Part shown: piece by piece, positions 2,319-28,886 of the stretch | Layout of the letters: every line of letters begins with the position of its first letter | How positions within the stretch are numbered: the stretch's first letter is position 1 | Source: Takashimella koratensis | Lineage: Eukaryota; Basidiomycota; Tremellomycetes; Trichosporonales; Tetragoniomycetaceae | Direction: 5' to 3' | Assembly (NCBI GenBank): GCA_003116875.1 | Contig: BCKT01000004.1 | Coordinates: 4,845 to 68,844, forward strand | DNA: 64,000 nucleotides | The notes under the pieces: model-generated | Told to the model about the DNA's origin: nothing | What the model saw: the letters and a program-made list of their open reading frames with translations, nothing else | Databases searched by the model: none | Program-made: the position numbers and the translations under genes

Positions 2319-3490
2319 GAATGGCAGGTGGTGAGTTTATCAACCTTGTGTACAAGCTAAGTTAAACAGGTGGGCGTAGTCGTCTTCTACCTCGTTGCGG
2401 CACTATTGGTAAGCTCCCGACGCGTTGTCGAGCTCATGTCAGATGGTTACCGTCAACAAATGGGTCTTGAACTCGACCGCGCTCCCCATTTCTTTCTTAT
2501 TCTGCCAACTCATCATCGCTGTCATTCTACTGTTTATCTGTCATCGACTCGGGTTCATGGTCATTCCACCATTTGAACTTGCGACAGCTGAACAATTATG
2601 GCCCATGGTGGCCGTGAACGTTCTCGGCTTGGTATTCAACAACCTCTGTCTTCAATACGTCGACGCTTCGTTCTACCAGATTGCTCGTGGCCTGGTCCTC
2701 CCAATCACCGTCGCTTTGGCGTTTGCGTTCCACCAATCTCCACCATCGCCATTGGCTTTGGCATGTCTTGTCACCATCACCGTCGGCTTCGTCATCGGAG
2801 TGCTTCTTGACCACCACTCGAGCAATCTCAAGGGCGGTTATTCTTTGTAAGTCGAGGGCCACTTTGCTCGCTAATAGCACAGCATCGGTATTGTCTTCGG
2901 TTTACTCTCATCGTGCACTACGGCTTTCCACTCGATCGTTATCAAGATGACTCTTCCACATGTCGACAACTCGGTGGTAGCTATGGCTTGGTACTCCAAC
3001 CTGCTATCGTCAATCGCCATCCTGCCTCTCATTCTTGTCGGAGGCGAAGTGCCAAAGCTCATTGAGATGATTGCGGTCCCTGCTCAACTGGGCGTGTTTG
3101 TATGGGGATCTCTCCTCACGGTGAGCATCTACTCCCAATATCGCTAACTCCTAGGGATTTTTCGGGTTCTTGATCTGCATCGCAGGCTTCTTATCCATCA
3201 AAGTGACATCCCCAGTAACGCATATGGTCTCCTCCGCCGCTCGTGGAGTCATTCAAACCGTCATCTCCGTCCTTCTCTTTGGTGACGTGATCCCAGGTGA
3301 GTTCCTAGCAAATCAAGAGGCTGACCAAGTTAGGCCTCGCGCGAGCTCCATCTTCGTCATCACTGTCGCATCATGTGTCTATGTCTATGTCAAGCATGAA
3401 GAGGCAAAGCCCGCTGCGGTTCCGACCAAAGAGGAGCAGGTTCCATTGGCTTCGAGGACTTCGGGCGAGGGTGACAGGGAGGAGGTTTAA
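2319..3490 (+). CDS. GDP-fucose-type nucleotide-sugar transporter (copy 1)
   Basis: This is a multi-pass drug/metabolite-superfamily transporter of the SLC35C1 GDP-fucose class, expected to exchange GDP-fucose for GMP in the Golgi membrane. My exon model is 2319-2328, 2362-2408, 2443-2846, 2883-3120, 3155-3296, 3330-3490, giving 333 residues. Diagnostic stretches are VNKWVLN, LCLQYVDASFYQIARGLVLP and PVTHMVSSAARGVIQT, followed by a cytosolic Lys/Glu-rich tail. All introns are 33-36 bases. The start is uncertain: ATG 2319 works only with a 33-base intron ending AAG; ATG 2285 does not join in frame. Copy 2 lies at 10.8-12.0 kb on the other strand. Its proximity to the GDP-fucose synthesis genes supports the substrate, which is inferred rather than proven. 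Confidence 0.85.
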
Positions 3491-3723
3491 ACTCGCATAG
3501 ATTTAGATGTATGGGGTTGTTACCGTCCGCTGGGTACCGGGTGCACTTATCTACTGTTATCGGTGGGGGTTCTCAGTCCTATGGCTCTCAGCACGAGACA
3601 AGGCGATTCTCTCCTTGGACCTCCACCGCTACGCGGGGTTTGTTGGCGACAAAACGCCCCCGCGATTGCTGGATATTTCGAGTTGGCTACCCATCAATTG
3701 ATGTAGGTAATCTTTGACAGCGG
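3491..3723. other. intergenic, nothing recognised
   Basis: This is the 3' flank of transporter copy 1. It contains only short frames without recognisable protein signal. Confidence 0.5.
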
Positions 3724-4161
3724 GGTCTGGCGCGTACCCCTTCTGGGAGGGGCACGTACTTTTTTCTAATGACTTTTTTTTCTAAGTTTCTAATTGCAGA
3801 TCTTCCCACGCAGATCCTCAGCAAAAATTACAATGTTTTCATGCATGCAGCTGGTCCAGGCAGCCACTGGGATGCACAACTAGTGATCTCTCAAATTTCA
3901 AGCAATAATACAATGAACTTGATAAGGAAGATGCGTCAACACTGGACAAGAATTTGTAAACAAATCCCTTGTGAAGTTCCTTGAAAGTAATAGGAAATTC
4001 TGGGATTTTGTAATGAAATTTGTGGTCAAGTTGGCAGTTGCAGTTTATAATAGGAGTCGTAATGAGTTTGGAAAGCTAATGAAGGGTTTGTAATAAACAC
4101 TGGAAAGAAAATTTCCACTGGAAATTCACGCGCCCCTCCCAGAGGGGGTACGCGCCAGACC
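3724..4161. mobile_element. MITE-like element with long terminal inverted repeats
   Basis: The left end (about 3724-3756) and the right end (about 4129-4161) are near-perfect inverted repeats of about 30 bases. The left reads GGTCTGGCGCGTACCCC, then a C/T-rich step and GGGAGGGGC; the right is its reverse complement with two or three mismatches. The roughly 380 bases between are AT-rich, unlike their surroundings, and encode nothing recognisable. No clear target duplication is visible. Size and structure fit a non-autonomous DNA transposon of unknown superfamily. Confidence 0.7.
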
Positions 4162-4191
4162 TTTTTGTCTAATTTTTCCCAAATACGGGCC

Positions 4192-4227
4192 GAAATTTCA
4201 GGGCCTGTACCCTGCCCGCTTCAGGGA
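4192..4227. promoter_or_regulatory. candidate upstream motif of the GT18-like gene
   Basis: GAAATTTCAGGG at 4192-4203 is followed by CTTCAGGGA at about 4219-4227, 200-230 bases before the start at 4423. The identical 12-mer recurs at 8762-8773 between the O-fucosyltransferase and GDP-mannose dehydratase genes. Regulatory meaning is a hypothesis. Confidence 0.3.
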
Positions 4228-4422
4228 TATTCTCTATGCCGCCCGCCGAATGATTCACCTGCTAGGAACCAAGAGCGCATGCTTGTCCCCTTTTGCGCCC
4301 GCCCATACGCGAACAATAGGCGTGGGAGCGGGTTGGCGAGCGATCACCAGGAGAGTTGAATAATAGAAGCATGAACTTCTCCTCATTCCCCTGTTTTTTT
4401 ACAAGACCATCATTCTGCAACC

Positions 4423-6517
4423 ATGGCCTCCATGTTGAACGACGACGAGGCATCGGCGGACCACGTCCCGCTGCTCCACTTGACCAACAACGGCGGCCAT
4501 GACGCTTTTGATGACCGTTCTCATCCGCGACGCAGCAAATCATCGTTGGGCCGAGGTCGACGATTGTTCCGCCTGCCGTCCCTCAATTGGAAGACGATCC
4601 TCGGCGGTATCGTCGTCACCTTCGCCATGCTCTATTGGTCTGCTAAAAGCTACCACCCGGAGACCGCGGCAGAAAGACATACGCGATTGGATAGATGGGC
4701 ACGAGTGCGCATGCTGAATGAGATGCTGGATAACTATTATCCTCCAATGTAGGTATCAAGCCCCTTGTCAAGCTCAAACTCATCCCACTTAGTTACCCCC
4801 AAGGCGGACGCATTTTCAACAGACCTCCCATGGATCGGCTTATGGACTGTCTCGAGCACAACACGTGTAATCCCTCGGAACTCAACATTGTTATCCTTGG
4901 TTCCGGCCATTTTGGTGAGTAATCATCCAGCAAAGAAACGACTAAATCCATTTCTAGCAAACTCTTTGCTCGGGTCTGTCTCTGGAGAAGACATCTGGTG
5001 CGTTGTGCCCATGAACACATCTTTCAACTAGTCCAGTCTGACCTTGTCTAGGGCCCTGTCCTCGATAGAAGTAATGACTGCGTTAAACTATACCTTGCTC
5101 CACGTGTACGGACACATGGAGATCCTCGCCATTTATCAACATCTTCCCGATATGGTCAAGATCGTCATTTGGGAACCGGCCAGTCTGACCAGCTGTTTTG
5201 CGAGAAACAACGAAACTTGGCAGGATGTCGACAATGGAGCAGCGTCGGAATGGCAGCGTGGGACCAAAGGGTGCATGAAAACCAGGGAGTTTCCCGAAGG
5301 CATCCCTTTACACAAGAGCTTTGCGTTACACTTTTGGCTTGGCCCTGCTACACCGCTCGGGAAGCAGTGGACGCTCTCGCCTGAAGATTACAAACAATTC
5401 ACCCATGACGAGGGTAACTACTATATAGGTGAGCATGATGCCTACGCGTTTGCTGATCCCTCTCTTTTAGGCTATCAACTCGAAGCTCACTGCGGGAAAC
5501 AAAAAGTCTACACGCCGGCAGAAAGAAACCACAACTCGCTTGTTTTGGCCAAAAACCCTTTCATCTTTGCTTACACGACTTCGGCTTGGTATCATATGCT
5601 CAAACCTGTGGCCGACTCGATCGAGCCGGCTTATGACAGAACGGCTGGGCGTGTCGTTCCGTTCGAGTTCATTTCGACCGCGGGCGACCCTGGCGTTGAG
5701 ATTGATGAGCCAGGAGTGAACTCCATGGGGCGGCTCCCGAGAGACGAGTGGTTGGAAGTTCTCGCTCGAAGCAAGATGATGGTGTGTAGTTCTGAAAGAG
5801 TGCAAGACTGACTCATTCTTTCAGCTTGGTCTGGGTGGACCGCAGCATTCACCTTCACGTATGTCTTCTCCGGTCATTATCCCTCTGAATGCTGACCTTG
5901 ATTTCAGCGTACGGTGCCCTTTGCGTCGGTTAGTACTAATTTGCATTCGTCTACATATGCTCATTCATTAATCAGGCGTGCCTTTCCTCAACGTGTGAGT
6001 GTGGTTACAAGAGGGCGGGACAATGTTAACAGCGTATAAAGTATATTGGATTGGGACCGCACCGACCCTTGGAACAAGACACACTGGGTTGCACAGCAAG
6101 GCGGTTTAACCTTGTTCGACCCTCCATATGTCTATAACGTTGTAGGTATATGACGTTGGGTTGAAGGTTACAAAACTGACTACACCAACTACAGCACAAA
6201 GGTGACGAAGAAGGGCTACGCAAAGCTGTGCATGCGGCGGTCGATCATCCCATTGGACGTTTCATTCGTATGTCATCTTTGATCGATGCGTCGATGATCG
6301 GAGGAACGCTAACAAGCTCCTATTTTCAGCACCGCGCATGACGTTTGAATCTGTCAAGGAGCGACACAAGCAGTTGGTCGAGACCGATCACCTGCCGGCT
6401 GCGCGAGCTTATGTTGACCTGAATTACGGCGGGCCGGAAAACGTGAGTTGTGGCCAGTCTTTGGTCTAAAACGAAGAGCTGATCTTTGGGTAGTTTGAGT
6501 GGTTGTTATTGGACTAG
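4423..6517 (+). CDS. GT18/MGAT5-like glycosyltransferase, type II membrane protein
   Basis: Twelve exons give 519 residues: 4423-4748, 4793-4914, 4958-4997, 5052-5428, 5471-5781, 5825-5858, 5908-5928, 5976-5994, 6042-6141, 6195-6267, 6330-6442, 6494-6517. A cytosolic tail precedes one membrane segment near residue 63 (ILGGIVVTFAMLYW), as in Golgi type II enzymes. The catalytic part resembles glycosyltransferase family 18 (the MGAT5 beta-1,6-GlcNAc transferase family): LNIVILGSGHF, EDIWALSSIEVMTALNYT, YYIGYQLE, LGLGGPQHSPSPYGALCVGV followed by FLNVILDWDRTDPWNKTHW, then a short C-terminal tail. The glycine-rich LGLG...P motif and the acid-rich C-terminus match the family's nucleotide-sugar site. 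Donor and acceptor in fungi are not known to me. The 42-base intron 5429-5470 would read through in frame if retained. Confidence 0.8.
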
Positions 6518-6722
6518 TCGTTGTGGTTGTTGGAGGCGATCTTCTGTAGTTTATAGCCTGAATATAGAGAAGGAGTGCTTAACAATTCGATGCCTTGCAC
6601 TGGTACATGAAACGAAGGAAGTTGGTGCATTGAAGATCTCCATGCTCTGAAGATTGGGAAAGGACGCGACAACACTCTTGGCAAAATTGACTGTAGCAGT
6701 GTGCCGGCGAAGATACCAGTGC

Positions 6723-8519
6723 CTAGTATGGCCACACCCATCCCTGGGGCGCATGACTGGATTCGGCCATGAGCACGGCGGTGCCCGACTGCAAATCAAG
6801 AACACGACGATACGCAACCATGCTCACTGGAGGTGGTAAGCGGCTTAAAACTGAGTTCAACTCACTTGTGCTGCCAGAGATACCGACGAATGCCCGAGCA
6901 GAGGATAACATCACCGAGTCGAGGAGAGCCGGGTACCTGACACGAGTTCAGCACAGCCATGTCGTTACACTCACCATGGCCCCAAACGCTGTACAGTCTG
7001 CTCTTTGACGTGGTCGACAATATAGAATCCTTTCATCATGAGGAGAGTTTCACTGCAAAGGTCAGCTGAAGCGTAAATGGTCTTGGCTCACATCCACTCC
7101 GGATCTGTCTCATCGGTGGTCACAAGGATGTGCGAAACCGTAATCCCGCGATCTCTCTTGAGCTCCTCGATGAGCTGAGATACAACGTATGCGTAGTCTC
7201 TAGGGGTGAGATGCTTCCAGCCTTCGCCAATGTCTAGTGATGCGGGTGTCAGCTACAGAACACCAGGAAGCAAGGAAAAAACTCACCCGTTCGTCGAATA
7301 TGAATCGCAGCGTACTGAGTCTTCAGTATATGAAGCATGATAGACGACTTACCGGAGGCAAAGCAGAATCAGGAGAGAGACCAAAAGTTCGGTGGAGAAG
7401 GTCTGCAGCGAGCTCGCGCATGCGAGGCGTGAAGCGAATGTACCTGCCAACAGTGTTCCAAGCACCAAGGCCACCCATACGATCTTGCCAATGGGCATGG
7501 CCGGGTGTCCAGACGGGGAAGAAGGTGGTGTCAAAACAAGCGACATGATCCTCGGGGTCGACCGTCGGTGGTGTGAGGTGGTTGTTTTGCAAGATATCGA
7601 GCGAGGATTCGTATTTCTGGTATGGTCTACCGGGAGCAACCAAGTGAGCCATCCTGACAGCCAGTGGCTGGACAAAGTTGTTCTCGTAGTAAACTTCGTA
7701 AGGCATCGGGGTGAAATCAAAGGCTGTTCGTGTGAGCAACGTCAATCCGATGCCACTTACTCAGCCCATGTGCGTTGGGCGCATACTCGGGATGACCGTA
7801 AAACCCCTCGTACTGACTCCAACAGCCCAAAGTCTCGGGCTCCGGCTCCTCGCTGTACAAGCATTCCGAATCGTGTCCATTCGGCTTGCAACCCGTGTAC
7901 ACCTCAACGTCAGAGCCCATCTCCGCCTTGAGCTCATCCAATTCAATGATGGGCAAGTCGTGCAAGGACCTCGACAAGAATGGGAGGTCAAAGATCTCCG
8001 ATACGGGCAGGTACTTTGCCGCGTCGCCGAGATGGAAGTTTGGCAAGAATGGGGGAACAATGGGGATACGACCACTCAAAAACGCAATGTAAATAACTTG
8101 AGGCGGTCAGCTGAGCCAAGGATGGTCACTCACGTCCTTCAAAGTCAATGACCTAGCGTTGTTAGCAATTGCAGTCGCCCTATCCCACCTGATTGGTCCA
8201 TCTAAAGTCAGCGCAGCTTTGAAACATGCACTCACCCATCCTTGTAATAAGTGGTAAGGTAATGCCTGTCCGGACGGAGATTGGTTTTGAAAGACGCCCT
8301 GGGCCCATGAGAGGCCAGCGCGTCGGCACTCAGCGACTGAGTCGGCAGCAGTGAATGATCAAAGTGCCCAGCACTTCTGTCCTTGGGCGAAAAACTAGTC
8401 GGCCAAAGGGCAAGCGCTAAGCCGATCACGCAGGACGACAGGAGAGTCATGATGACTCGTCGTCCGTACGTTGAAGCCGCCATGTTGGGCGATCCAGGTC
8501 GAGAGTGGCCAGAGCTCAT
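6723..8519 (-). CDS. O-fucosyltransferase-superfamily protein (GDP-fucose-dependent)
   Basis: Ten minus-strand exons give 483 residues: 8519-8236, 8201-8189, 8152-8134, 8096-7761, 7723-7353, 7320-7287, 7233-7092, 7052-6975, 6936-6866, 6826-6723. The N-terminus has one membrane anchor (VIMTLLSSCVIGLALALW), so a Golgi type II enzyme is likely. Family marks are YYKDGWTNQVIDFEG near the start of the catalytic domain, LIYIAFLSGRIPIVPPFLP, the HIRRTDIG motif (the HxR donor site of POFUT/FUT8-like folds), HILVTTDETDPEW, and FVGISGSTMSMVAYRRV near the end. These match the GDP-fucose protein O-fucosyltransferase superfamily; acceptor unknown. It is divergent from GDP-mannose dehydratase 714 bases away, so both genes of donor making and donor use share one promoter region. 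Exons of 13 and 19 bases are notable. Confidence 0.85.
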
Positions 8520-9233
8520 GGCGAAGGTGTGTTCAATGAGAGATCTTCTTCCACTTCGTGATGATATCAACCGTCGGTCGTCACAGCTAACTTCTCGGCT
8601 TTGGAGGCTCTACACTGGAACAAAAAAAAAAAAAAAAAAAAAAAAAAACCTATCTGGTGTCGCGCGCGCGTGAATTGGCTTTTACTGTACATCGCGTCAA
8701 ACTTCAACGGTGAGACTTCTAACCTAAATCCTGAGTTTTGTATGAACCGAATAGCTCGCGAGAAATTTCAGGGAAGATGCCTGAGTGAGCCGCGAAAAAC
8801 GTCAGGAAATTTCCTCTAGGTCACCCAATTTTATCTGAACGACAGTTGCACCCCGAATCAGCTGCTATCGGGCAGGGGAAACTGCGAAGAAGTGATTCCG
8901 ATTTAAAAACGTTTGCAGTCGCCGTTCGCGCACTCCAAAGAGGGTTCTTGAAAGCCTGGCTCGAGGCAAAACCTCCTCTCAGGAAACATTTACCTGAATC
9001 AGGTCAAAGATTTTCAGCTCCAACCTCCCGACGATAAGCTACTTTCGGGACCCGAGCTGCCACGTCTGTCCAAAACGCGTGAAGAGGCGTCGTGCGGACG
9101 CGAGGGGGGTTTGGGGGGTCTGACACCCCCACCCCTCTCCCAATAAAGAGACCACCCTTGTTCGCGCCGCTACCCATCTCATCTCTTTCAATCTTCTTGT
9201 CTCGTGCCAATTGAAATTCTTCAAACATCCATT
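8520..9233. promoter_or_regulatory. divergent promoter region: O-fucosyltransferase / GDP-mannose dehydratase
   Basis: This 714-base gene-free interval lies between two divergent starts. It contains a run of about 26 A at 8622-8648, the 12-mer GAAATTTCAGGG at 8762-8773, a palindromic GGAAATTTCC at 8805-8814, and a G-rich/C-rich stretch at about 9103-9140. Shared regulation is inferred from the arrangement. Confidence 0.45.
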
Positions 9234-10631
<1,398 letters not shown>

Positions 10632-10754
10632 AGCGCACGGTAGTTTAACAATTCCTTTTGTTTTCCGTAGATTCATGTCACCACTATGAAAACCGTTTGG
10701 CCGAAAGTTGTTATTCAGTGATTGCATTAAACTCTAAACCATAAGAACTCTACA

Positions 10755-11988
10755 TCAAAGGGTTGATTTCGATTTTTCAATGGATTCGTCAACTTCCGTA
10801 GAAGAGTGAACCAACTCGTGTCGTTCCTCGGGGATCTCTTTAACCGCTGGTTTTTGCTTCTGCTCTTCGTGCTTGACGGACACATATGTACACGAAGCCA
10901 CGGTGATGATAAAGATGGAACCGGCCCGTGCCCTGGGGACGTTAGAGCTGCTTTTCACAAAGCTCACCTTGAGATGACATCGCCAAACAGAATGACGGAG
11001 AGAATGGTCTGAATGACGCCTCGAGCTGCCGAGGAGACCATGTGGGTCACGGGCGAAGTAACCTTAATGGACATGAATCCTGCAACGCAAATGAGGAAGC
11101 CGAAGACACCCTACAATCAGCGTGATCAACAGATGACCCACCGTGATCAATGACCCCCAGATGAAGATGCGAAGCTGGTTCGCATCATTGCCAAGCTCAA
11201 GAAGCGGACTCAGCTCCCCAGCAATGGCAATCATGGGCAACATGGCAATCGCTGAAAAGAGATTGGAGTACCAGGCAAGGTGAATGACCGAGTTGTCGAC
11301 GGTAGGAAGACACGACTTGATGACTATGGAATGAACGGCTGTAGTGCATGAAGAGAGCAAGCCGAACACGACGCCAATGCTTATCGTCAGCCCACTAAGT
11401 CGTTGATTCACTCACAATGAGAACCCTTCTTTTGGAATACTGCTCTTTGAATCGAGTGTAACTCCAACGAGGAAACCGACAGTGATTGCCGCGCAGCAGG
11501 CAAACGCAAGAGGTGAGGGGGGAGCATGATGCAGTCCCAAAGCCAATCCGACAGTAATGGGAAGTACAAGACCGCGGGCGATCTGATAGAAGGATGCGTC
11601 CACGTATTGAAGGCATAGGTTATTGAAGACGAGGCCGAGGACGTTGACAGCGATCAACGGCCGCAGCTTGATGCCAATAGACCAGTCCAGTCGAGGAAGG
11701 TTAATCAACCGAACCGCATGACACAACAGCAAGAGTATAACAGCTATCACCAGCTGGCAAAAGAGGAACGAGACGGGAAGGGCCGCAGAGTTCAAGACCC
11801 ATTTGTTCACGGTGACCATCTCCCAAAATTAGCCACGTCGCATGATCTACACGCTCACCATCAGAGCTGCTACCAAGTAGAAGACCACGACGGCTAGCTG
11901 ATATCGTCAGTCTACCTAGCATAACCTCTGATCTACGTACCACTTTGAGCTCTGAGGCTCGAGTAGACTCTGTCTTTGAAGCCGACAT
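10755..11988 (-). CDS. GDP-fucose-type nucleotide-sugar transporter (copy 2)
   Basis: This is a paralogue of the transporter at 2.3-3.5 kb and shares VTVNKWVLN, LCLQYVDASFYQIARGLVLP and the exon layout. The first coding exon (11988-11941, ending ELKV) is followed by a 39-base exon reading LAVVVFYLVAALM, then the long exon starting MVTVNKW at about 11819. The tail is Lys/Glu-rich and ends in SKSTL at the stop 10755-10757. About ten membrane segments are expected; it should sit in the Golgi membrane and supply GDP-fucose. It converges on GDP-mannose dehydratase (123 bases apart) and diverges from GDP-fucose synthase (304 bases apart), so it sits exactly between the two biosynthetic genes. Specificity is inferred from family and position. 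Confidence 0.9.
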
Positions 11989-13902: not shown

Positions 13903-15665
13903 TTACTTGATCAAGCTCATAGCCTGTTGGTGCTGCAAAAGCCACCTCTCCCAAATAATCTCCATGACCGCGTTATCCGCTCTACCGACCATTGGTCTAT
14001 GAGCAATGTTGGGAAGCGGCCCCTCGCGTACCCAGTGTCTGCAAAGTCAGAACCGTTACAGTTGGAACACTCACCTTCCGTCAGATGTAGTCTCCGGTCG
14101 CGAGTCTGAAATGGACCAAGCGTCCACGATATCAATGTTCATATCGGGATAGCGCTTGCGGAACGATTCAACCGATTTCTGGGCGAGTCGGAAATGTCGA
14201 CTGAGAAAGTAACGGCGCATACCGAAATAGCAGAAGACCCCTGGAGATACAGATGGTGTCGCCATCCACGTGATCGAAATATCTCGTCCAAACATGTCGA
14301 TGATCGCCTGCAAGGTATAATCGACCAACCACGAGTATGTTTCGTCATGGTCGCCAGCAAACCACATGCCAACGTTGGTGATCACATGGGTAACTGGCTC
14401 TGGCTCTTCGAGGATAGTCCTGACTTCTGGGAAAGACTTTTCAAGCCCACCGTCGAGGAAGCGCTGACTGAACCGAACTTGCGATCGAGGGTCGGATGGA
14501 TCGTCCAAGGAAACGGTGAAGTTCTTGCTCGAAAAGTGATACTCTGCGGTGCCATGAGAAAACTCGCAAGCTCCCGAAATATCGCCATTATGAAGTTGAG
14601 GGTAGAGATGGCCGCAAAAGCTCGTTCGAAGAATCGAGTCCCCGATGAAAGCGAGGTGCTTGATATCCTTGTTCTCTGCGAGCGAGTGCCGATAGTCGAG
14701 CGCCAGTCGTTTGCAGCCAAAGGGGACCCAGATGTAATCTGGCATCGCAGTGTGGGGGAGAAGGGACTCTGAGAGGGTGATCAACCAAGACGCTCGACCC
14801 TCAAAGGAGAAGAAGACTCACCGCTCTTCTCCAAGTGACTCCTGAACCAAGGCATCTGACGGTACGGTGGTCGGACATGTGCCAGACTAACCCAGCGGCC
14901 CCGTTCCGACCCCTCGTTGTAATCAGACAGCTCGCAAGTCTTGAGGGAATCTAGAGGCAAGTGTCGGACACTGCTTGGTTGCGTTACTTGCAAGATTGTT
15001 TGTCCACTGCCACGAACAAACTTTCGTGGGGTGTCGTCCGGCTGTTGGGGACAGCCACCGGGTCGCGCATAATCAAACCACGCCCAAACTTCGTATTTCC
15101 CTGCTTGTGGTACGATCGCCTGAATCGTAGTGACACCAGTGTCATGATTCTTGTTGTATAGTACTTCCTCTGGTGAGAGCGAGTAGGCGAGCGGACCGCG
15201 GAAATGAATTTGATATTGTTGAGTACAATCTTCTGTGCCCCAGATTTGGCTGTCGCAGGTGATTGTGATGTTGAAGGGCTCCATAGCACGGATGCGTTGG
15301 GGAAGTTTCATGGATAAAAGTCCTGACCATTAGTTTACGAGACAAGAGTTTGCTCACCATATTCAGCCTGTTCTTGGTTCAAAAGACTGGCGCCGGGGGT
15401 CCGAATCAAGAGCTCTGTGTCTAACAGGTCCGTGATTTGAGGAGGGACAGATGCGGAAGGTTTCAGGTATCGAGTACTGAACGTCAGACCAACGATATGA
15501 TTGGTCACTCACAAATCCGCGGGGGACGAGTGGAACAAGGATAAGGACAAGATGATCGAGCTGACAACCACAAAGAGCAGCCTGATTGGTCAGCGTCGGG
15601 CACAATGAGCGAGCTTACAAATTCCGGTACTTGGATATCGGTATGCCACTCTGAGCAGTGAGCAT
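13903..15665 (-). CDS. PC-esterase/NXPE-like glycan O-acyl enzyme, linked in frame to the TPT transporter
   Basis: The first membrane segment (KYRNLLLFVVVSSIILSLSL) is type II. A beta-rich region follows (MEPFNITITCDSQIWGTEDC, KYEVWAWFDYARPGGCP), comparable to the N-terminal domain of NXPE proteins. Then comes a GDSL/SGNH-like module with DIKHLAFIGDSILRTSFC (Ser of GDS), THVITNVGMWFAG, and a C-terminal DGRHW (Asp-x-x-His) before GRADNAVMEIIWERW; stop at 13903-13905. These are the marks of PC-esterases, which O-acetylate cell-surface polysaccharides in plants and fungi. The ATG at 15665-15663 directly follows the TAG (15668-15666) of the upstream transporter frame. If the 36-base intron 15686-15651 is spliced, both become one protein. 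Activity is inferred from motifs. Confidence 0.8.
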
Positions 15666-17189
15666 CTATTTGAACAATAAACCAACCTTTGACAAGCCAA
15701 GCTTGGCCTGATCAGCGATCCGAGCCAGGCCTCGAGAAACGGCGATCATCAAGGGGCTGTTCTGAAATCGGAAACCCATCAGACCGAGCAAAGCGATCGA
15801 GTATCCTGGAATCAGCAACTTGCCACATTGGAGCGACCCACCTCCAACTTGAGTAGACGTGACACTGGATCCCAAGAATGTGACTGAAAGAGTGATCAAG
15901 ACAATATCCTATCGAGTCAGTGCGGGTTAATCTTCCATTGCCTACCTTGAAAACACCGCACAGGGTGAGAACGAAGCTTCCAGCCGAACCGATCAGGAAT
16001 ACGGCCGCAACATTCAAGCCAAATGCCACGGCGCCGTTACAGAGTAAAGTGAAGAAACCGACACGAGGTATTTCGAGGAAAGGAGCCATGCCTTCGTTGA
16101 AGGGAATCATGATCGCGATGAGAACACAGCATAGCTAGAGTGAGCAAAGCAACGAAACCTGTACGTACTGGAGCATAGTGGTAGATGCTGACGAGCGGGT
16201 TCATCTTTCGCTCGTGCAAAAGCACCTGGACCATGACAAGTCGAACAGATTCGGCGACAACGGCCAAAACCTGGCAGACGAGACCAAATACGTTATATGC
16301 GAGCTCTCCAAACCCAGCGGTAACACATCCAATCGTGATCGCAATGAGAATGATAGCAGTGAACGTGTCAAGCGCTGAGAATAGATCAGCCTGGGCGTTC
16401 TATGGTACACTTACCAGCCATGCCCAGAGCACACGTGATCAAATGCGTTAACACCGGAATCGAGGCCTGCGGTTAGCTTCGGTTCATGACACGACATACC
16501 TTCAGCATCTGGACAAAGCTGACACTCAGATGGACATAGGCGGTGTTTGCCAGGACAAGTGAGATGGCAAACAGGATACCTAATGGAAGGATTGCCCTCG
16601 TCCAAGTACGCATCTTGTGGTGAGTGTCGATCATCCAAATCACTTACATCTATTGGATTCTCCTTGACATCGTCAAGAAGATGCGTCGTAAGCCGCAATA
16701 CGCGTGTCCCGACAGCCTGTTGCAATCTTCAGTAACCCATCGGTGGAAGAGCACTCACGGCAAAAAACATGTGATACGCGGTGAGGAATGTTGGCTGTCG
16801 TCTTTAGCTAGACCTCATGAAACAACGAAAGCACTTACGAAGGGAAATTGAAGCGTCGCGAATAAGTACTTGTTGAACAAGATGATACTCCCGCTTAGAC
16901 CGAGCTAAGAGAAGTTAGCGTGGGGGTCAAAGCAGAATCATAGAAGTGATACTCACCCATAAAGGAACTGATAAGGTTCGTTAGCGACCACTCGACAGTG
17001 ACTGAACTCACTGATGACCCATGGTGGAATCTTAATCTGGGACTGGGGCGGCTTTGCACGACCGACCTCAGCGATGCTTGTAGCGGACCCGACCTGACGT
17101 TGCACTTTGGTTTCGTCTGACCCAATCAGTTCAGTCTGTTGGAGCTCGGTCGATGAGGTCCTTCGATGTCCATTCTTCGAGTCGAGCAT
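15666..17189 (-). CDS. TPT-family (triose-phosphate translocator-like) nucleotide-sugar transporter, copy A
   Basis: This is a ten-helix EamA/TPT-type transporter. I start it at ATG 17189 (MLDSKNGHRRTSSTELQ), matching the short basic leader of copy B; a longer frame from 17378 exists. After a hydrophilic N-terminus the exons give SGSIILFNKYLF, FLTAYHMFFA, TRVLRLTTHLLDDVKENPID, MRTWTRAILPLGILFAISLV, NTAYVHLSVSFVQMLKASIP, RKMNPLVSIYHYAP, NGAVAFGLNVAAVFLIG, and GSSVTSTQVGGYSIALLGLM. An 11-base exon (16957-16967) is conserved in copy B. Substrate is unknown: sugar nucleotides, or sugar or triose phosphates, are carried by relatives. The frame runs either to TAG 15668-15666 or, spliced, into the PC-esterase. 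Divergent from the GT31-like gene. Confidence 0.85.
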
Positions 17190-19696: not shown

Positions 19697-21373
19697 ATGT
19701 CTCGCTCGCTCTACCCCCCTCGACGCCTCCTCATTCCAGTGGCATTCTTTCTCACCATTGTTACCGTGCTCTGGAACTATGCGTCTTTGTCCGACCTTCC
19801 TGAACACGTTACATTGGCGTGGACCAAATCCACTTCGACCGCCACGTATTGTTCTCGACAAGATATAGACAATGGCGAGTGGGAAGTGACCGGAAGGATA
19901 AGCTCTTATGAGGACATTCCTCTAGTTTATGGCTACAAGGTGAGTCGGCCCCAAAGATAAGCCGCTGACCGTCAGAGCTGGAAGCACAATTATTGTGGAG
20001 CTATCGGTGCGGTTTGGAACGAGGGAAACGCGATGGGTCAGCCGATTGAGGTCGAAAGGCAACGCAAAATCGACGTCAGTGAGCCCGTATACGTTAAGGC
20101 TGGGCAGTGCGTGTATCGTGATGGAGATCTGGAGGAGAAAATCATCCATCTGCTTCGCATGCCATCAGGAGCATTGTAAGTGACGAACCAAAGTTTCATC
20201 CAGGCCCCTGACCCCTCTCTGTCTACAGCTTGATTGGAGGTACGTTTATCAAGTCGCCTCATGCACTAACGTCAGACTCGATTGTGCTCCAAATCTCTCG
20301 CGTCTTTGACAATATCTTTGTTGGCGAGGGCTCTCCTGTGACAGTTGAACAAGAGGGATCTTGGGATTGGTACCCTCTGGCTCGCTTCCATTCACTGGAT
20401 CCTAACCATCCAGATACGAACTCGATATTGAATCGAGCTGGCGTGTCAAAAGAGAGGCTCAACTATCCCCTCATCTCGTGGTATCGAACGTCGTACCTGC
20501 TCCCCACGCGCGAGCTTATTCTCTCGGCTTTTGATGGGATCGCCAACGCAGAGCTTCCAGGATTCAGCACGGACCAATTTGTCGATTGGTTCGATCGACT
20601 AAATACGTCTATTCCTGCTGCACGAGAAGCTGTCACCTGGAAAGATGGGTATCAAGAGGAGCCGACCAGTATTTTGATCCATGGAGGTCCTCACTTCGTT
20701 CCAGGAGAACTGGGCCATCATATCACCGAGGAGGAGATCATTCAAGGCTTCTACGGAACGGTGAGCGGACTCGGGAAAACATCTGCTTATGTGTCAGGTC
20801 GACAGAATGGAGACTCTGATGAGGTCCGTCCCATACCCATCATACCTATACTGGGAAACGACCACACCGGGTCATATTGATTGCGGGTTGCAGACGAATT
20901 GTAAGTGACAAGCTTGCGTCTTTTCTAACACCATGCAGTCGACAATCAAAGGACGTTGGGGTTGTCTCCTTTTGATCTGGAGAAGCCCTTATACAACTAG
21001 TGAGGAATCACTCTTGTACCCCAACTGATCCTGCTCAGCAACCTCTTCCCAATCTTCAACGACTACATCCGGCAAAAGTTTCCCGATGACAGCAATCGCC
21101 GCTCGACGTTCGTTCGTCACTTCTGGAACAGAATCAAACTCGCATTTGACTCGTCGTCGACGCCAACCAACCCCACATTTCGAGTCATGGATACATGGTC
21201 GCTCTCCGTGAAGCGGCCAGACGCACATCGCGGTCCTCCGGCCGACTGCTTGCATTTCTGCAGCACAGGAGTACCAGACGAGTGGGCTAAGGTAGGTTCA
21301 ACCCAATGCAGCTGCTGACGTTAAGGTCTGGTGGCATCTGATGTTCGAGGAGGCCGTCAATTCAAAGCATTAG
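19697..21373 (+). CDS. PMR5/PC-esterase-type glycan O-acyltransferase-like protein
   Basis: Eight exons (19697-19939, 19976-20175, 20229-20239, 20276-20760, 20798-20900, 20939-20999, 21039-21291, 21326-21373) give 467 residues. The N-terminal anchor is LLIPVAFFLTIVTVLWNYAS. The GDS motif (FLIGDSIVLQ) spans an 11-base exon and its neighbour, with HGGPHF in the middle and a C-terminal VMDTWSL then ADCLHFC (Asp-x-x-His), giving the Ser/Asp/His set of the PC-esterase/Cas1-PMR5 fold. Upstream, GEWEVTGRISS and HNYCGAIGAVW resemble the PMR5 N-terminal region. Plant relatives O-acetylate wall polysaccharides in the Golgi. It is the second such enzyme in the cluster, distant in sequence from the one at 13.9-15.7 kb. 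Confidence 0.8.
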
Positions 21374-23162
21374 ATCTATCTGCTTTGGAACAACTTATCG
21401 TTTAGTTTTCATGTTTCGCATGCGCCTAGAACTTCAACGGGAGACGTTGAGATGCATTGAGGTGTCGCGACCGCGTCGGTGCGAACACATCAATTTCAGT
21501 TTGAATACCGTGCAGGAGAAAAGGCGAACAAAAGGGTTAAACATCCTGCGGGTAAGAATGGCGGGGAGACTTTGAGGATTTTCTTGCTCGGCTCCAATCT
21601 CATTTTCAGGGTTTGTTTTGCAAGGAAACGCTTCACGTACTGTACTAATCAATCTGACAAGATGCACCCAACCACGTTTACTTTCTCCGAGGTCGTATTG
21701 ACAGAAATCTGGGAATTGTGCCGTTGTCGTTAGGCAAGGTTTGCACAATAAAGGTTTTTGATGAGCACAAGCTTGTTCGCCCTGAAGCGAGCCATCCAAA
21801 TTTAAGTTCCTAAAATTGGCCAGCAGGTCGAAAGTTGACACGCGACCCGGACCAAGTCCCCTAGCGGTGCCTGCCGGACGCGTCGACTGCGCGCCAGTCG
21901 AAGTCGAATTGATTGTGCTTTCGTTGATCACAATGATGGCGACGTCTCGGGATGATCAGCGGGCACGAGAAGCACGCACACAAAGGCTTAGGCACTTCCC
22001 CCGCTTCGCATTCGTCCTCTATCTTGGGCAACAATCTACGCGCTTGCTCATTCGGTTGGGCGGAGGCCGACTCTCTGTTGACCAATGGGCCACCAGTAGT
22101 CTCAGCGCAAACGAGGTGGAACTTGAGACTGACGGTTAAGGATACACCAGTAAAGCGAGCGAGCGTGCCGCCGAGGGGCTCAGAATATGCGTTGACCTCG
22201 GTCATGTAGCACGAGATGACTGCAACCCAGGGATCAGACTGTCATATCATACTTGTATTAGGACCCCCTGCTAATAAGACCAATGAGCTCTGAGGTCTAC
22301 CGAGACTACCTCGTCTGCGCACAGCTTGGCAGACACAAGTCGGCCGACAGCGTTCCGGGGCGCTCACTGGGCATGTTTAGACTATTTGCGGTAAGGATTG
22401 CGGATCATACTTTCAAAATCTTTCTCATAGGTGGTATATCAGCTTATGCGACAAGCTTCTCTTTGAAAGAGGACATGTTTCACGAGATCGTGAGGTTCAA
22501 ATACATTCGTCGAGTGTCTAGAGTGTGTCACTAAGGAAGCTTTGGCAAGTATGCAGCTAATTCCCGTCTAGGCCAAAACCAAACGCGTACAAGCTTGGCG
22601 AGGTTTGGCCTTCCGGAGCCTGATAGGATGGAGACTGTGAGAGCCGTTCAGGCCCATCAACAGACAACATCTCTTGACGTCTTGGCTTGAACACTACATA
22701 GAAACCGGCTGTCAGCATAGCGTTTACGGTACATACAGTACATCGCGATTACCTGAGCTTGAGATACTGGACGTCTGGAGTGATTGGAGGCGCCGGGCGG
22801 TCCACTCCAAGGTTTAATCACCGAGTGGGTGGAATTTCCCCAGCCATCAGACTGAAATTTTCGAGTTTCAGATATGCGGGAACGCCGTGCTCCCCGGTCC
22901 AACAGAGGCCGACCACGCACAGAATTTTCAGGGGTCCCCTTCGTCCGTCTTGCGATGTCCTGCACCAGTTTTCCATCTGCATGAAAATTGAGAGGTATCA
23001 TTCAGAGCTCCTTAAAAGGCAGTTTTTCCAGATTCGAGCAAAACTCCTAGCGACTTTTTTCGTCCCGCTGCTTTTGTACCAGACGCGTTGAACTACCAAG
23101 GGCCGTCTGACTGGGGTCATTGCCGTCCTGCCGTCCTCTTATATCTACCAACCAACTTAAGC
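21374..23162. other. 1.8 kb without a supportable gene
   Basis: Both strands have medium open frames (for example minus 21434-21931 and 21861-22205, plus 22283-22534), but none shows recognisable motifs or convincing splice connections. It may hold a decayed gene, regulatory DNA, or a fast-evolving gene. The last 350 bases carry repeated A/T-core elements (GGAATTTCCC at 22,831, a CTGAAA...TTTCAG palindrome at 22,852-22,871, GAATTTTCAGGGG at 22,922) and are likely the promoter of the next gene. Confidence 0.45.
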
Positions 23163-24803
23163 ATGGTTGAGTCTCATACAGCTCACCACCGGCGCAGCCT
23201 TTCAATGGACGACGACTCGAAGGGGTCTGGAGTACTCCAAACTCATACTCCATTCATGAGCAAGCATGATGCGGTACCGACCAGCAGAGATGCACGGGTA
23301 GATCCGTCTTCCCGACCACCTCCTGCGATCAGTCCATGGCTTATCAGTGAGTACCGGAACTAGTGGAAGATCCCTCTCGCTGACATGACCCCAGTATCGC
23401 TTTGGGTGAGCCCCGTATCCTTCAACGAAGTCTCGTGTTTTCCGCGCTGACCTTGTTCAGCTCGTCTTGAGTGGGAGCATCATTTTGTTCAACAAATATC
23501 TTTTCACTACCTTGAACTTTCCTTTCGTGAGAGCCGTTCCTTCTTTGTCTAGCCGTAATCTGAAAGCTGATAGACGACGTCCAGCCCATGTTTCTGACTG
23601 CGTACCACATGACGTTTGCTGTGAGTGTGAAGGAGACGGCATCTTACACAACGGTTCACTCACAAGGTATAGGCTATTGGAACTCGGATCTTGAGATACA
23701 CAACCCATCTCCTCGATGATGTCCATCAAAATCCGATTGATGTGAGTAATGAGCCATAAAGGAAAGCCTGACGATTTGCAGATGCGTACGTGGACACGAG
23801 CGATCTTGCCATTGGGCATTCTCTTTGCGTTGTCTTTGGTCCTCGCCAACACCGCATACGTCCATCTTTCCGTCAGCTTTGTTCAAATGTTAAAGGTACG
23901 TCATGGTACAGAGCAAGCTAACCCCTACGGCAGGCCGCGATTCCCGTCCTCACTCATCTGCTTACCTGCGCGTTTGGAATGGCTCGTAAGTCATCGTCCG
24001 TTGCAACATGCAACCTTCATTGTGAACGTGGGATGCTGAACAACTGTGTCGTCTAGAACTTGACGAGTTCACGGCCTTTTGTTTAACCTTGATCACCATT
24101 GGCTGTGTGTTGGCTGGTCTCGGCGAGTTAAGCTGGTCGGTGATCGGGCTCGTGTGCCAGATTCTAGCCGTTTTGGTAGGTCCAGTACTACGTTTGCTGT
24201 ATTGATACAACAGGCGGAATCTGTACGCTTGGTGCTCGTGCAAATCCTGTTGCATGACCGTAAGATGAACCCGTTGGTCAGCATCTATCACTATGCTCCG
24301 GTAAGTCTTAAACTCCTTGTCCTCATTGACGTAACTTAAGTTGTGCGGATCCATCATCGCGTTGATGATCCCCTTCCACGAGGGTATGGCTCCGTTCAGA
24401 GAGCTCGCGCGCGTTGGCCCAATGGTCCTTTTAGCGAACGGCGCCGTCGCGTTTGGCCTCAATGTTTCAGCGGTCTTCCTCATCGGGACGGCTGGAAGTT
24501 TTGTCTTGACACTGTGCGGCGTTCTCAAGGCAAGTAGTTATGAGTGCGCCCTGTGTTAACCTGCTAGGATATCATTCTCATCTCCTTGTCTGTTTTGCTA
24601 TTGGGCTCTCATGTCACCCCTACTCAAGTTGGAGGTAAGATTGTCGTTTAGAGTCTATATGCTCATCTGCAGGATATTCGGTCGCGCTTGCTGGTCTGAT
24701 GAGCTTCCGCTTCAAATCGAGTCCGATCATGGTCGTCGTCCAACAAGGCGTGACAAGCGCTGTCAGGCAAACGCAGGCCTTCTTTTCAAACGCAAGTGAT
24801 TGA
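23163..24803 (+). CDS. TPT-family nucleotide-sugar transporter, copy B
   Basis: This is a paralogue of copy A with the same exon plan: hydrophilic start MVESHTAHHRRSLSMDDD, PPPAISPWLI, the conserved 11-base exon 23395-23405, SGSIILFNKYLFTTLNFPF, FLTAYHMTFA, THLLDDVHQNPID, MRTWTRAILPLGILFALSLV, LTHLLTCAFGMAELDEFTAF, RKMNPLVSIYHYAP, NGAVAFGLNVSAVFLIG, TPTQVGGYSVALAGLMSF. One intron (24530-24567) begins with GC, not GT. Unspliced, the frame ends at TGA 24801-24803. Removing 24796-24851 instead joins it in frame to the glycosyltransferase that follows, and no start codon for that enzyme exists between them. Substrate unknown. Confidence 0.85.
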
Positions 24804-24851
24804 TTGAATTGCTGCTGACGAGGCTTTAGAGAAGGGTCAGGTTTATCGCAG

Positions 24852-26327
24852 TGGCTAGTTTTGCGTTCGTCCTGGCAAGCGTCGGATACCACGGTCGTGC
24901 GTACTTGTTCATTTTCAAATCTGATACCTAGGTGTTCACGAGCCCTTCTTTAACGCGCCTTCGCCAACCTCCATCTCGGCGACATGGGAGGACTACGCCC
25001 CTCGACATGTCAAGGTGCCAATTCCTTACGATATCACGCAGCCCTTACCCAACAAGACAGACGTCCCGTGGCTCAGTACCTTTGCGTTGCACGACCTCAC
25101 TCCTGAGCAACTGGTCCCACCCTTCTCTCCCGACCCTGACCCGAAAACGCTGCCTCAATTAGCATGGGTGATGGTTATCCAAGCAAACATGGTACAGAAG
25201 TGAGTGCTTAAGACTAGGCCAAGAGTGTCGCTAATCATTCTACAGCTCCGCCGAGATCATTCAACATATCCAATGTTTCTGCCTACGCGCAGGGATTCCG
25301 TTCTATCTGGACGTGGTTCTGTCGGTCACAGATGAGCACTTCTTCACCGCACGTCATTACAACTTGGTGAAATACCTCCGCCGACACCAATGGCTCCTGG
25401 TGACGGACGGGGACATTCTAATCGCAAACTCGAAATCGGACCCACGCAATCTGATCGCAGACGCCGACGGCGTCGACATCATCTTCCCCGAGCGAGGTTC
25501 ACCCGAGGTGTGCACTTGTGCCTTCTTCTTGCGCAACTCCCCGGGAGGCTGGAGCTTCTTGCGTCGGTGGCTGGCATGGCCTGCAGGGGCCAGCAACCCG
25601 AATTACGATAATGGTGACTTCAATGAGATGATTCTCGCCGGAATGCAGGCAGGTCCTCCTTCCAACCACGACGGCACCAGTCGCATGACTCACGCTGAAG
25701 TCGACGCTCTCGATTTGACACCAATGGAGAAGCGATGTATCAACCTGCCTATACAGGACTGGTACGCGCACGAATTTTGGAAGTGTCTCCATCCTCGATT
25801 GCGCGAAGTTCGTACTAGAGCACCTTGGAACCCGTACTGGGAGATCAGGTTATTCGAGTGGACAACGGCGCTTCCGCCGTTCACGTTGCGGGTCATTAAA
25901 GAGTACGGCGGCTTTGCTCGAAATTCGCCAAAGGTCCCTTCTGGCTGGTGGAGGTCGATGCTTCCCAACGACTTTATATTCCACCTTCACAAAACTGGTG
26001 ACTTGTTCAACGCGTCAATGGCGCTTTGTTCGGGAGACGATTGGGAGTACGAACCAAAGTAAGTCGACCACTGTTTCATCAGCTACGGCGCTGATTCAGC
26101 CTCGCAGATCAAACTTGACAGAGTTTATGCCCTACGTCAACTGGTATAACCCCTACTCGTGGGCTGGATGCTGGGAAAGGGACGGGACATATCTCTGCAG
26201 CGAGGATGGTTCTCATCACACTCCTGAAGAGGTATTCCCTGACTATCCGCCCACTGTGGTTGAACCGATTGAGCCGGTTGTAGAAGAGGAAGCGATTGAA
26301 GAGGTCGAAGAACTTGACGAGAAATGA
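24852..26327 (+). CDS. DUF273-like GT-A glycosyltransferase, apparently fused to TPT copy B
   Basis: After intron 24796-24851 the frame opens with a membrane segment (SFAFVLASVGYHG), then VHEPFFNAPSPTS and a luminal domain. The catalytic part shows FYLDVVLSVTDEHF, HYNLVKYLRRHQWLLVTDGD with DILIAN (DxD), DGVDIIFPERGSPEVCTCAF and a DNGDFNEMIL acidic motif, the pattern of DUF273-type GT-A transferases. A conserved C-terminal block (FHLHKTGDLFN, ALCSGDDWEYEPK, GCWERDGTYLC) ends in a very acidic tail. Further introns are at about 24897-24931, 25201-25245 and 26060-26107. The joining splice itself creates an ATG codon (A24795 plus TG24852-24853). A related C-terminus lies at 63.6-64.0 kb. Donor unknown. 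Confidence 0.75.
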
Positions 26328-26783
26328 GAGACCAGGTCGTCTGACATTGACGAGTTTGCATGAGTACATGGTCATCTTGGATTTGTTCCCATAGCCGACG
26401 GTGTGGGCCCGGAAGTATGGTACGGGTACGCGACGCGGTGGTTGGGTCAATGGATGTATATAGAATCCTTCTGTCTGCCTGTCTACCGGTCTGTTGGTCC
26501 AGTGTGTGTCTATGGCTTATCCAGTCATCCAAGTGCCAGTGCCACTCGCTCTTGCGTCCTGCCGCCCCACTCGCGTGCCTAACTGTACCCCCGGCCCTCT
26601 TGCCCGCGCGCCTATCTATCTCCGGGGTGCACATACCTCCGACGCGTGCACTCCCGCTTCTTCTCATCCTCCCACCATATCATCATCCTCAACCCTCAAT
26701 CCTCAACCCNCGGCCCCCCCCCCCCCNCNCTNCCCNCCNCCCNCTTANCANCCCAANCGCGCGCAGGATCCACTAAACCTCTC
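26328..26783. other. intergenic with low-quality C/N tract
   Basis: Between two plus-strand genes. Positions 26,710-26,757 contain ten N in a C-rich run, followed by a GGATCC site at about 26,766. The tract looks like a sequencing or assembly join, so the distance between the flanking genes is not reliable. Confidence 0.7.
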
Positions 26784-28886
26784 ATGTCCGGGGCGCGAGG
26801 AACACGGCACGCCGTCGCAGACTCTGAACCATCGACCGCCTCCAAATCCTCCCGTAACTTGTTATCATCCGTCGCGACAACTTACCGTATTCGAAGCGAT
26901 ACCGACAGGATGGTCGACGGGGACCAACAGGCTTCGAGCGGCATGCGACCCATATCCCTCGCCGAGAAGAGGGGTGAAACCCTTCCAAGCCTTGGCATCG
27001 GGCGTGAGAAAAAGCGACGTTCGGATATAGGCAAGTCTATGGTCATCTCTCATCTCTCAATTTTTGATCGCTCGCAGCAACTGACCATACCCCTACTTTA
27101 GGCTTGTCTGGCAAAGCTTGGGCCATCATTGGTGCAGTTCTTTTCGTCATCTTTATAACCACCATGTTGCTTCGTAAGTCTGTCGCGTGGAAATCGTTAC
27201 CATCTTCTAATACGAACATCTCTAGCTTCCACGACAACCCCGTCGCATTCTCATACACACGCCCCAGAACTTCACGTTCTCTCCCCTCGCGACTACCTGA
27301 ACAATTCGCGCATTGACCCAGCCCCATTCCCATTCTGTCCCGTCTTTGGCTCAGGTGATGCCGTCGCTCAACGACGAGGCCAGCTTGAATTGCTGCGTTC
27401 TCGTGTGTACTCTGGTACTGGAGGTCGTGTCCAGCGCTTGATTCAAAAGGCAATGTCAGGTGCGCCAGTCACCATGAGCGTTTTGGGAGGTTCAGTTACG
27501 GCATGCGTCGGGGCTGGCGACGATCTCATCAGTCGGACATGTTACCCTCACCGATTCTTTGACTGGTGGCAGACCGTTTTCCCTCATCCCGCAAACGAGC
27601 TCACGAATGGGGCGACCGCCAAGACCGATTCGGCGTACTATGCCTACTGTAACTCGCATCACCTCCCGGACAAGACGGACCTGGTCATCTTGGAGTTTGA
27701 CGGCGCCGATCCCAAGTAAGTTCTCTTCTCTCTACACCTGCTAACAGCAGTGACCCGGAATGGCTTCCACACTTTGAGCTCCTCGTCCGATCCATTCTCA
27801 TCCGCCCCGAGATGCCCGCCGTTGTCATTCTCGGTCATTTCAGTCCTCAAGTCCAAGCGCAAAACGGCTTTGCAGGGCCCGAGCTCTTGCACAACGTGGT
27901 CGCCCAATTCTACGACGTCCCTCATATATCCGTCAAGGGTCTGCTGTACGAGCTGTACCTGCAAAGCCCAGACAAAGCGCGATCTGCATTCTATCACGAC
28001 CCGCAACTCGCCAACAACAAGGGCCACGAACTCATCGCCGACGTCTTGATCTCGTACTTCATGTCCCAAGTTTGCTCCGGATGGTCATCCCTCACTGGCC
28101 ACTCATACGAGGCGTTAAAATTGAATGGAGACTCGGATTCGGACAAGTCGTCGCCGCCATCTCTTCTGGGTGGAGTCGGCTTGCGACCGGGCATGCCTGG
28201 CCAAAACCCTGGCGACGGCGCGAGCGCAGATTCGGCCCTCGCACAGAAATACGCATCCCTCAAAGTCCCCAACGCACGACTCGCCGATCGCCCAACGGAT
28301 GTCACGCAGTTCCGTGAAGTCGAGCCGTTCTGCGTCAGCGCAAGCGATTTGATCAACCCACTGCCTCCGTCATTGTTCCATGGCTCGGGATGGCACCCAT
28401 ACCACCCGACCCGATCGGCTCACATCGAGGACAGGCACTATTGGTACGCTGAACAACCGACGTCGCGTCTGCGTGTTCCCGTTCGGATCGGCGCTGGAGA
28501 CGTCGGTATCTACTTTGTGCAAAGCCCCGTTGAGAACCCGCTCGGGACGGTGAAATGCTGGGTCGACGACAACTTTGGTGGAGCCAAGACGCTTTATGGT
28601 ACTGCTGAGGTTGACGAGACGATCGCAACGTGAGTAGAGCATATGAGTGTAGAATCCGGTCTACGTGGTCGGACGATCAGACAGAATCTCCTTTGTCACA
28701 ATGCTAATCCATTCCGCAGTCTCGTCATTGTTGACCGAGGCGTGTCACGGGGTTCCCACTTTGTGGAATGTAAACTTGAAGGCGAGCCAGGCGACAGCTC
28801 TCCTCCCTTTAAAATTCTTGGCATGTGAGTAGGGAGGTAGAATTGGTAGGGATCTTTACTTACTGCTGTCCAGCTTCACGACATGA
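26784..28886 (+). CDS. membrane-anchored SGNH-hydrolase-like protein (capsule-associated-type)
   Basis: A long basic cytosolic N-terminus is followed by one membrane segment (AWAIIGAVLFVIFITTMLL) created by splicing 27031-27101, an intron with a GC donor. The luminal part has VTMSVLGGSVTAC (a Gly-x-Ser block as in SGNH enzymes), FFDWWQTVFPH, NELTNGATAKTDSAYYAYC, TDLVILEFDGADP, AVVILGHFSP, then NNKGHELIADVLISYFM and a C-terminal beta-rich region with HYWYAEQPTS and VDDNFGG. Similar proteins in encapsulated basidiomycetes are, as far as I recall, annotated as capsular-associated; that is recollection, not a search. A role in polysaccharide acylation or attachment is inferred. The ATG at 26784 lies just after the N tract; ATG 26910 is an alternative. 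Confidence 0.65.

Follow-up and report, generated by a model that had tools for sequence, protein, structure and literature searches.

A candidate GDP-fucose glycan gene cluster with apparent transporter–enzyme fusions in the basidiomycete Takashimella koratensis

Do genes for GDP-fucose synthesis, transport and transfer that lie side by side in a fungal genome form one dedicated pathway, or are they neighbours by chance? We addressed this question in Takashimella koratensis, in a stretch of 64,000 nucleotides (the window) which spans positions 4,845 to 68,844 of contig BCKT01000004.1 (C4:4845-68844; other contigs are abbreviated likewise) in the 25.1-Mb, 24-contig assembly GCA_003116875.1, and which begins close to the contig start. 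Eleven consecutive gene models at 2321-28886, which bear the letters A to M (HG and KL each count as one model), are glycan-related by family or motif. This confirms the original prediction that GDP-fucose genes are co-located within 2.3-28.9 kb, in a group larger than first described. On balance these genes probably form a eukaryotic cluster for glycan biosynthesis, inherited together as one pathway whose product would be a surface or secreted glycan that bears fucose and, probably, O-acyl groups. The predicted genes, with their positions in the window, are as follows.

2321..3490, plus strand: A, SLC35C-like nucleotide-sugar transporter (TPT family), 5 exons, 338 amino acids (aa)
4423..6517, plus strand: B, GT18-like glycosyltransferase, 11 exons, 523 aa
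6723..8519, minus strand: C, O-fucosyltransferase-superfamily enzyme, 9 exons, 496 aa
9234..10631, plus strand: D, predicted GDP-mannose 4,6-dehydratase (GMD), 7 exons, 375 aa
10755..11988, minus strand: E, SLC35C-like nucleotide-sugar transporter, 6 exons, 349 aa
12293..13549, plus strand: F, predicted GDP-L-fucose synthase, 9 exons, 326 aa
13903..17189, minus strand: HG, apparent fusion of a TPT transporter and a PC-esterase-like domain, 17 exons, 885 aa
17636..19144, plus strand: I, GT31-like glycosyltransferase, 5 exons, 426 aa
19697..21373, plus strand: J, PC-esterase-like protein, 7 exons, 479 aa
23163..26327, plus strand: KL, apparent fusion of a TPT transporter and a DUF273-like glycosyltransferase, 16 exons, about 812 aa
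26910..28886, plus strand: M, SGNH-like protein with a hydrophobic N-terminal stretch, 6 exons, 550 aa

The locus genes carry many short introns, so that lists of open frames show them in pieces. One automatic gene-finding run returned few genes, most of them where the GC content of the window is higher, and a second recovered most cluster genes, merging H with G and leaving others partial. As these automatic models were incomplete, the eleven cluster models were built by hand splicing, and their exon edges were later checked. All 11 hand-spliced models can be read through from their ATG to a final stop codon with no stop in between, and their 87 introns (31-98 bp, median 39) follow the GT-AG rule in 86 cases and GC-AG in one. 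Nine have a Pfam match over the cut-off, J falls under it and M has none. Searches used near-final forms of the models (HG lacking 1 residue, E 12 and M 1), and the first Pfam scan used preliminary ones (A lacking a stretch; C, E, F and H partial). Expected motifs helped to decide some of the splice sites in B and C, and the family scores are therefore not fully independent of the models: B went from no Pfam match in its preliminary form to 31 bits in its final form, and C from 16.5 to 34.9 bits. The only ambiguous letters in the window are ten single N at 26710-26757, where the sequence ahead of gene M is rich in C; they point to poor base calling at that spot.

The two enzymes of de novo GDP-fucose synthesis, originally placed at 9.2 and 12.3 kb, are backed by family and structure scores. 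D reached 594.2 bits against the NCBIfam equivalog TIGR01472 (gmd; cut-off 415) and, as a preliminary model, 424.6 bits against PF16363. Its best solved-structure match, a GMD, gave 543.8 bits, and it carries Tyr-xxx-Lys, the catalytic motif of GMD. F matched a solved GDP-L-fucose synthase at 406.7 bits over residues 3-320 of 326. Its best-scoring NCBIfam family, NF047922, gave 192.4 bits against a cut-off of 500, a shortfall which we attribute to the library model being prokaryotic (bacteria/archaea) and F being of eukaryote type. We read D as a GMD and F as a GDP-L-fucose synthase, predicted to make up together the complete two-enzyme route from GDP-mannose to GDP-L-fucose.

Clusters of sugar-nucleotide synthesis and transfer genes are typical of bacteria, and D scored 494 bits against 1db3, which we take to be an E. 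coli-type GMD, compared with 397 bits against 1n7g, presumably a plant-type one; both points would suit a pair of genes acquired from bacteria as an operon. The exons speak otherwise, seven in D and nine in F, as do the scores against solved chains. The five best rows for D lie at 541-544 bits, followed by 5uzh at 510 (by its name probably an amoeba GMD) and by all others at 494 or less, and the five best rows for F lie at 384-407 bits compared with 157 or less for all others, among them 1bsv (143 bits), which we take to be the E. coli GDP-L-fucose synthase. The best solved GMD row is presumably human, and the top rows of both enzymes presumably human or from other eukaryotes. With both genes bearing introns and best matching eukaryote-type enzymes among solved structures, we rejected a bacterial origin of D and F, which we consider extremely improbable.

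Is this the only such route in the genome? Whole-genome searches worked exon by exon and all copy counts are lower bounds. Profile searches of this genome are insensitive across introns (PF10250 missed gene C itself, and PF03151 gave four exon matches, some on contigs C11 and C19); the copy-number claims rest on protein searches and, for GMD, on a PF16363 profile search. The protein searches brought up no further close copy of F, C or J in the 25.1-Mb assembly, and a search for SLC35C-like sequences returned A and E only. Of the 15 matches to PF16363, two are exons of D. The next, at C9:951796-955350, belongs to a UDP-glucuronate decarboxylase, as judged by 309 bits against solved chains so named, and, apart from a second stretch of the same gene, the remaining matches reached 53 bits or less; no other close copy of GMD was recognised in the assembly by this profile, whose strongest other match was followed up. 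As no other close copy of GMD, F, C or the A/E pair was found and these genes lie together, a dedicated GDP-fucose pathway is well supported. This much of the originally claimed glycan pathway stands, with a fucosylated, O-acylated product as its putative end point.

The same searches bear on whether the co-location is incidental, that is, whether a contig-end region has gathered duplicated glycosylation genes that have no common product. Such a history would fit a window that starts near the contig start and holds a Tc1/mariner-like fragment and a MITE-like repeat (MITE, miniature inverted-repeat transposable element), and it would fit a second group of glycosylation genes at C13:1052221-1060400, within about 11 kb of the right contig end, which comprises a TPT gene, a GT32-like gene (PF04488, 38.7 bits), a GT18-like gene (PF15024, 33.1 bits) and a relative of the transferase-like gene at 61.7 kb of our window. 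For GMD, GDP-fucose synthase, C and the SLC35C-like pair, however, the searches showed no further close copy, and synthesis, import and transfer are functionally complementary. We therefore regard a chance assembly as unlikely.

Import of the donor would fall to A and E, which are 66% identical. Both pass the TPT cut-off of 30 bits (A at 35.7 as a preliminary model, E at 55.5), and the sole solved match of E up to E 1 was the GDP-mannose transporter 9s35 (E 6.7e-6). We name them SLC35C-like from what we take to be sequence features of that group, and infer that they are candidate GDP-fucose transporters. Two transporters of this type had been predicted; the pair fits that description, and the TPT-family transporters number four rather than two, H and K being parts of the apparent fusions.

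The transferases are led by C, which passes the PF10250 cut-off (34.9 bits, cut-off 31.5) and is the O-fucosyltransferase-superfamily enzyme foreseen for the locus. It carries an HIRRTDI motif, and its HIRR, D, S and T positions align with those of POFUT2 4ap5, the next Phe being Ser in C; the overall match to 4ap5 is not significant (E 0.76). The HxRR Arg and the Asp, Ser and Thr so aligned are among the residues named as conserved in POFUTs in parts of a fungal survey (PMC10481521). C need not be the only fucosyltransferase, the searches not having included GT10, xyloglucan-type and FUT8-type enzymes. At least three further glycosyltransferases had been expected and are represented by the GT18-like B (PF15024, 31 bits over a cut-off of 28, with a weak match to MGAT5, E 0.006), the GT31-like I (PF01762, 39.4 bits over a cut-off of 23) and the DUF273-like L (20 bits, under the cut-off of 30).

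GT31 and GT18 members elongate protein glycans, and C belongs to the O-fucosyltransferase superfamily and has POFUT-aligned residues. The cluster could thus serve protein O-fucosylation, in which C would attach fucose to Ser/Thr of secreted proteins, for chain extension by B, I and L. The esterase-like domains and several TPT transporters would better fit an acylated heteropolysaccharide, and EGF motifs are absent in fungal hyphae according to the portions of the survey cited above (PMC10481521). We judge service to protein O-fucosylation rather unlikely, and continue with an acylated surface or secreted glycan as the preferred product.

Of three acylation candidates, two are called from motifs alone. 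J matches PF13839 at 21.1 bits (E 3.3e-4), under the cut-off of 27, and carries the motif RPDAHRGPPADCLHFC, which we take to be TBL-like. G has no Pfam match to PC-esterase and is esterase-like by its GDS and DGRHW motifs, presumably those of esterases, whilst M has no Pfam match over cut-off and no PF13839 match, its SGNH motifs being recognised by eye. Two PC-esterases had been predicted; three esterase-like candidates (J, G and M) are present, none of them over the PF13839 cut-off. L, G and J had no solved-structure match up to E 10, and AlphaFold predictions on single exons were poor (mean predicted local distance difference test scores of 32.4 and 46.0) and were not used.

The layout of the locus is unusual for a eukaryote, and its most unusual element is the pair HG and KL, which appear from their predicted frames to be single transporter–enzyme fusion proteins. 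Two further features bear on them.

15651..15686, minus strand: HG junction intron, 36 bp, GTTGGT...CTCAG, between the transporter and esterase halves
63579..64000, minus strand: third apparent TPT + DUF273 fusion, 3' part only in the window, whole gene C4:68423-71196

In HG, the transporter H (TPT, 71.3 bits, residues 60-337) and the esterase-like G lie in one open frame across 17 exons, with a hydrophobic segment at 379-397 ahead of the catalytic part. The transporter part K of KL scored 85.5 bits against TPT. The third copy reaches 43.6 bits against DUF273, over the cut-off of 30, and reads as 717 aa if spliced at the junction or 729 aa if unspliced. A comparison of HG with a large protein database gave no match at E 0.001 or better among the 7996 most word-sharing candidates scored; as TPT transporters are common in eukaryotes, this null result probably reflects a database with few or no fungal proteins.

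Could transporter and enzyme instead be separate neighbouring genes, joined by the gene models? When the HG junction intron is kept in, the frame of H stops at TAG and the ATG of G directly abuts it, which would fit two separate genes, and the junction donor is GTTGGT rather than the usual GTRAGT; the donor of KL is weak. Yet a promoter could not fit into the 0 nt between these same-strand frames, the frame of L holds no ATG ahead of the membrane anchor (a TAG stands in it directly at the splice acceptor), and the third copy has no internal stop whether spliced at the junction or not. Moreover, in both stand-alone TPT paralogs examined as automatic models, one on contig C1 and one at C4:1172k, the frame stops immediately behind the transporter, without an extension. 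In the automatic model of the C13 paralog, an extra hydrophobic stretch and a short tail follow. We find an artefact of the models distinctly unlikely and treat HG and KL as apparent fusions, the exact junction donor of KL being uncertain.

H and K are 68% identical and the two DUF273 parts 40% identical. In a tree of seven TPT rows the A/E group was supported against the rest and the H-K pair was supported at 92/97, the other forks being unsupported. The simplest history would be that a transporter was duplicated inside the cluster and joined to two different enzymes. A crude hydropathy scan found one segment between the transporter and the catalytic part in all three fusions. TPT-type transporters usually have ten helices with both ends in the cytosol, and with this topology one further membrane segment would turn the catalytic part to the lumen.

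Taken as a pathway, D and F would make GDP-fucose in the cytosol, and A and/or E would carry it into the Golgi, C would add fucose and B, I and L other sugars, and G and J would transfer an acyl group, probably acetyl, to give a fucosylated, O-acylated surface or secreted glycan. The catalytic parts of HG and KL would face the lumen, where the imported donor would be released, one transporter scaffold (H, K) thereby carrying two different catalytic partners. We tentatively suggest, as a possibility to which we would not yet commit, that TPT serves as an interchangeable platform: one copy of the scaffold would bear a glycosyltransferase and the other an acyl-transferase-like domain, and each protein would both import a donor and use it on the lumenal side. 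An acyl donor might then be what the TPT of HG imports, unless this TPT is no more than a scaffold, and substrate hand-over would be built into a pathway that leads from GDP-fucose to the glycan.

Most of the genes had been described as divergent or convergent neighbours. Three divergent pairs are present (C/D, E/F and HG/I), with common upstream regions of 714, 304 and 446 bp, and HG and KL, which had not been foreseen as fusions, appear to be single genes. The heptamer TTCAGGG, first spotted by eye and then tested on upstream regions that we chose, occurs ten times in the window, all at 2021-22927, with nine occurrences in five of eight upstream regions; the background, mostly coding and richer in GC, holds four in 137,454 bases. 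A MITE-like element with 57-nt inverted arms, 79% complementary and 370 nt apart, lies upstream of B at 3701-4184, and a Tc1/mariner-like transposase fragment was recognised by eye at 812-1292, near the contig start. From 29 kb on the genes are housekeeping-like by eye, for example a succinyl-CoA ligase beta subunit, and the outlying sugar genes are these.

51284-53666: second GT90-like frame, adjoining the next, by eye
54054..56427, minus strand: GT90 (CAP10-like) glycosyltransferase, PF05686 45.1 bits over cut-off 24, automatic model
61673..63457, plus strand: transferase-like gene of no recognised family, automatic model with an in-frame stop

The last of these has no Pfam match over cut-off, its relative being the one in the C13 group. 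The UDP-glucuronate decarboxylase on contig C9 makes UDP-xylose synthesis likely, which fits the GT90 genes.

Several observations weigh against a single co-inherited glycan pathway. The gene models are predictions with partly motif-guided splice choices: the last exon of A is read through a possible 37-bp intron, the only option that keeps the frame, and the joined frame of KL (812 aa) needs the weak donor GTGACA, a second in-frame option giving 816 aa. Membership of the O-fucosyltransferase, GT18 and GT31 families does not tell which donor or acceptor an enzyme uses, and the PC-esterase calls are weak, J lying under the cut-off and G and M having motifs only. B has paralogs on contigs C8 and C13, including three GT18-like ones outside the cluster at C8:139152-141284, C8:1127390-1129377 and C8:1318903-1321256, and I has one relative elsewhere, on contig C11. 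As to topology, the segment before L barely exceeds the threshold (1.56 vs 1.55), and within the transporter parts of the three fusions the scan counted 7, 7 and 8 segments, so that helix number and topology are taken from what is usual for the family. Three of 300 dinucleotide shuffles gave some non-simple 7-mer as frequent and widespread as TTCAGGG, which makes it a weak candidate regulatory site and a lead only. Finally, sugar genes also lie farther down this contig and on C13, which makes it hard to say where the cluster ends.

How does the locus compare with known systems? The five-gene galactosaminogalactan (GAG) cluster of Aspergillus fumigatus and other Pezizomycotina, as given in its abstract, establishes that fungi can cluster polysaccharide genes, including a polymer-modifying enzyme (PMC4817252). 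That cluster is co-regulated; its sugars and genes differ from those here, and the abstract names neither a GDP-fucose route nor a transporter–enzyme fusion (PMC4817252). None of our 11 models has a polysaccharide deacetylase family match in Pfam, the GAG proteins themselves not having been searched for. Chromosome 19 of the alga Ostreococcus tauri, in the passages concerned, is rich in glycosyltransferases, with neighbouring epimerase/dehydratase, galactosyltransferase and triose-phosphate transporter genes, and one of its proteins, ostta19g00600, is a GT92 containing a TPT domain, which gives the fusion idea a precedent (PMC5082852). The organism and the transferase families differ, the authors tie the chromosome to virus resistance, and those passages describe neither a TPT-esterase fusion nor a host pair of GMD and GDP-fucose synthase (PMC5082852). 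KL and the third copy read, in our predicted models, as one frame of TPT plus transferase, the transferase being DUF273 and not GT92.

The enzyme families of the locus are those of the animal and fungal GDP-fucose pathway (GMDS, GFUS, SLC35C1, POFUT), and de novo GDP-L-fucose is probably within reach of Dikarya representatives, according to parts of the fungal survey; these place O-fucosyltransferase genes near housekeeping or secondary-metabolism genes and do not mention linkage of GMD and GDP-fucose synthase (PMC10481521). Polymers of basidiomycete yeasts, in which fucose occurs with mannose, galactose or glucose, are the kind of product for which the locus is a candidate (PMC7760879, PMC8355462, PMC12628781, each in extract). 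Fucose is present in the exopolysaccharide of Rhodotorula mucilaginosa (PMC7760879) and inferred for lichen yeasts (PMC8355462), and SLC35 and TPT genes are listed in work on the exopolysaccharide of R. toruloides, the word cluster being absent from the extract (PMC12628781). The extracts of all three describe no glycan gene cluster, and a literature search that covered few subscription journals turned up no described fungal GDP-fucose cluster.

Fungal making of fucose-containing walls and exopolysaccharides is poorly mapped, and the locus offers a short gene list spanning candidates for synthesis, import, transfer and acylation which could be deleted or expressed together. The fusions, if true, would allow the hand-over of a donor inside the Golgi to be tested directly. 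Clustered glycan genes are already known; the apparent transporter–enzyme fusions are what is most unusual about this GDP-fucose locus.

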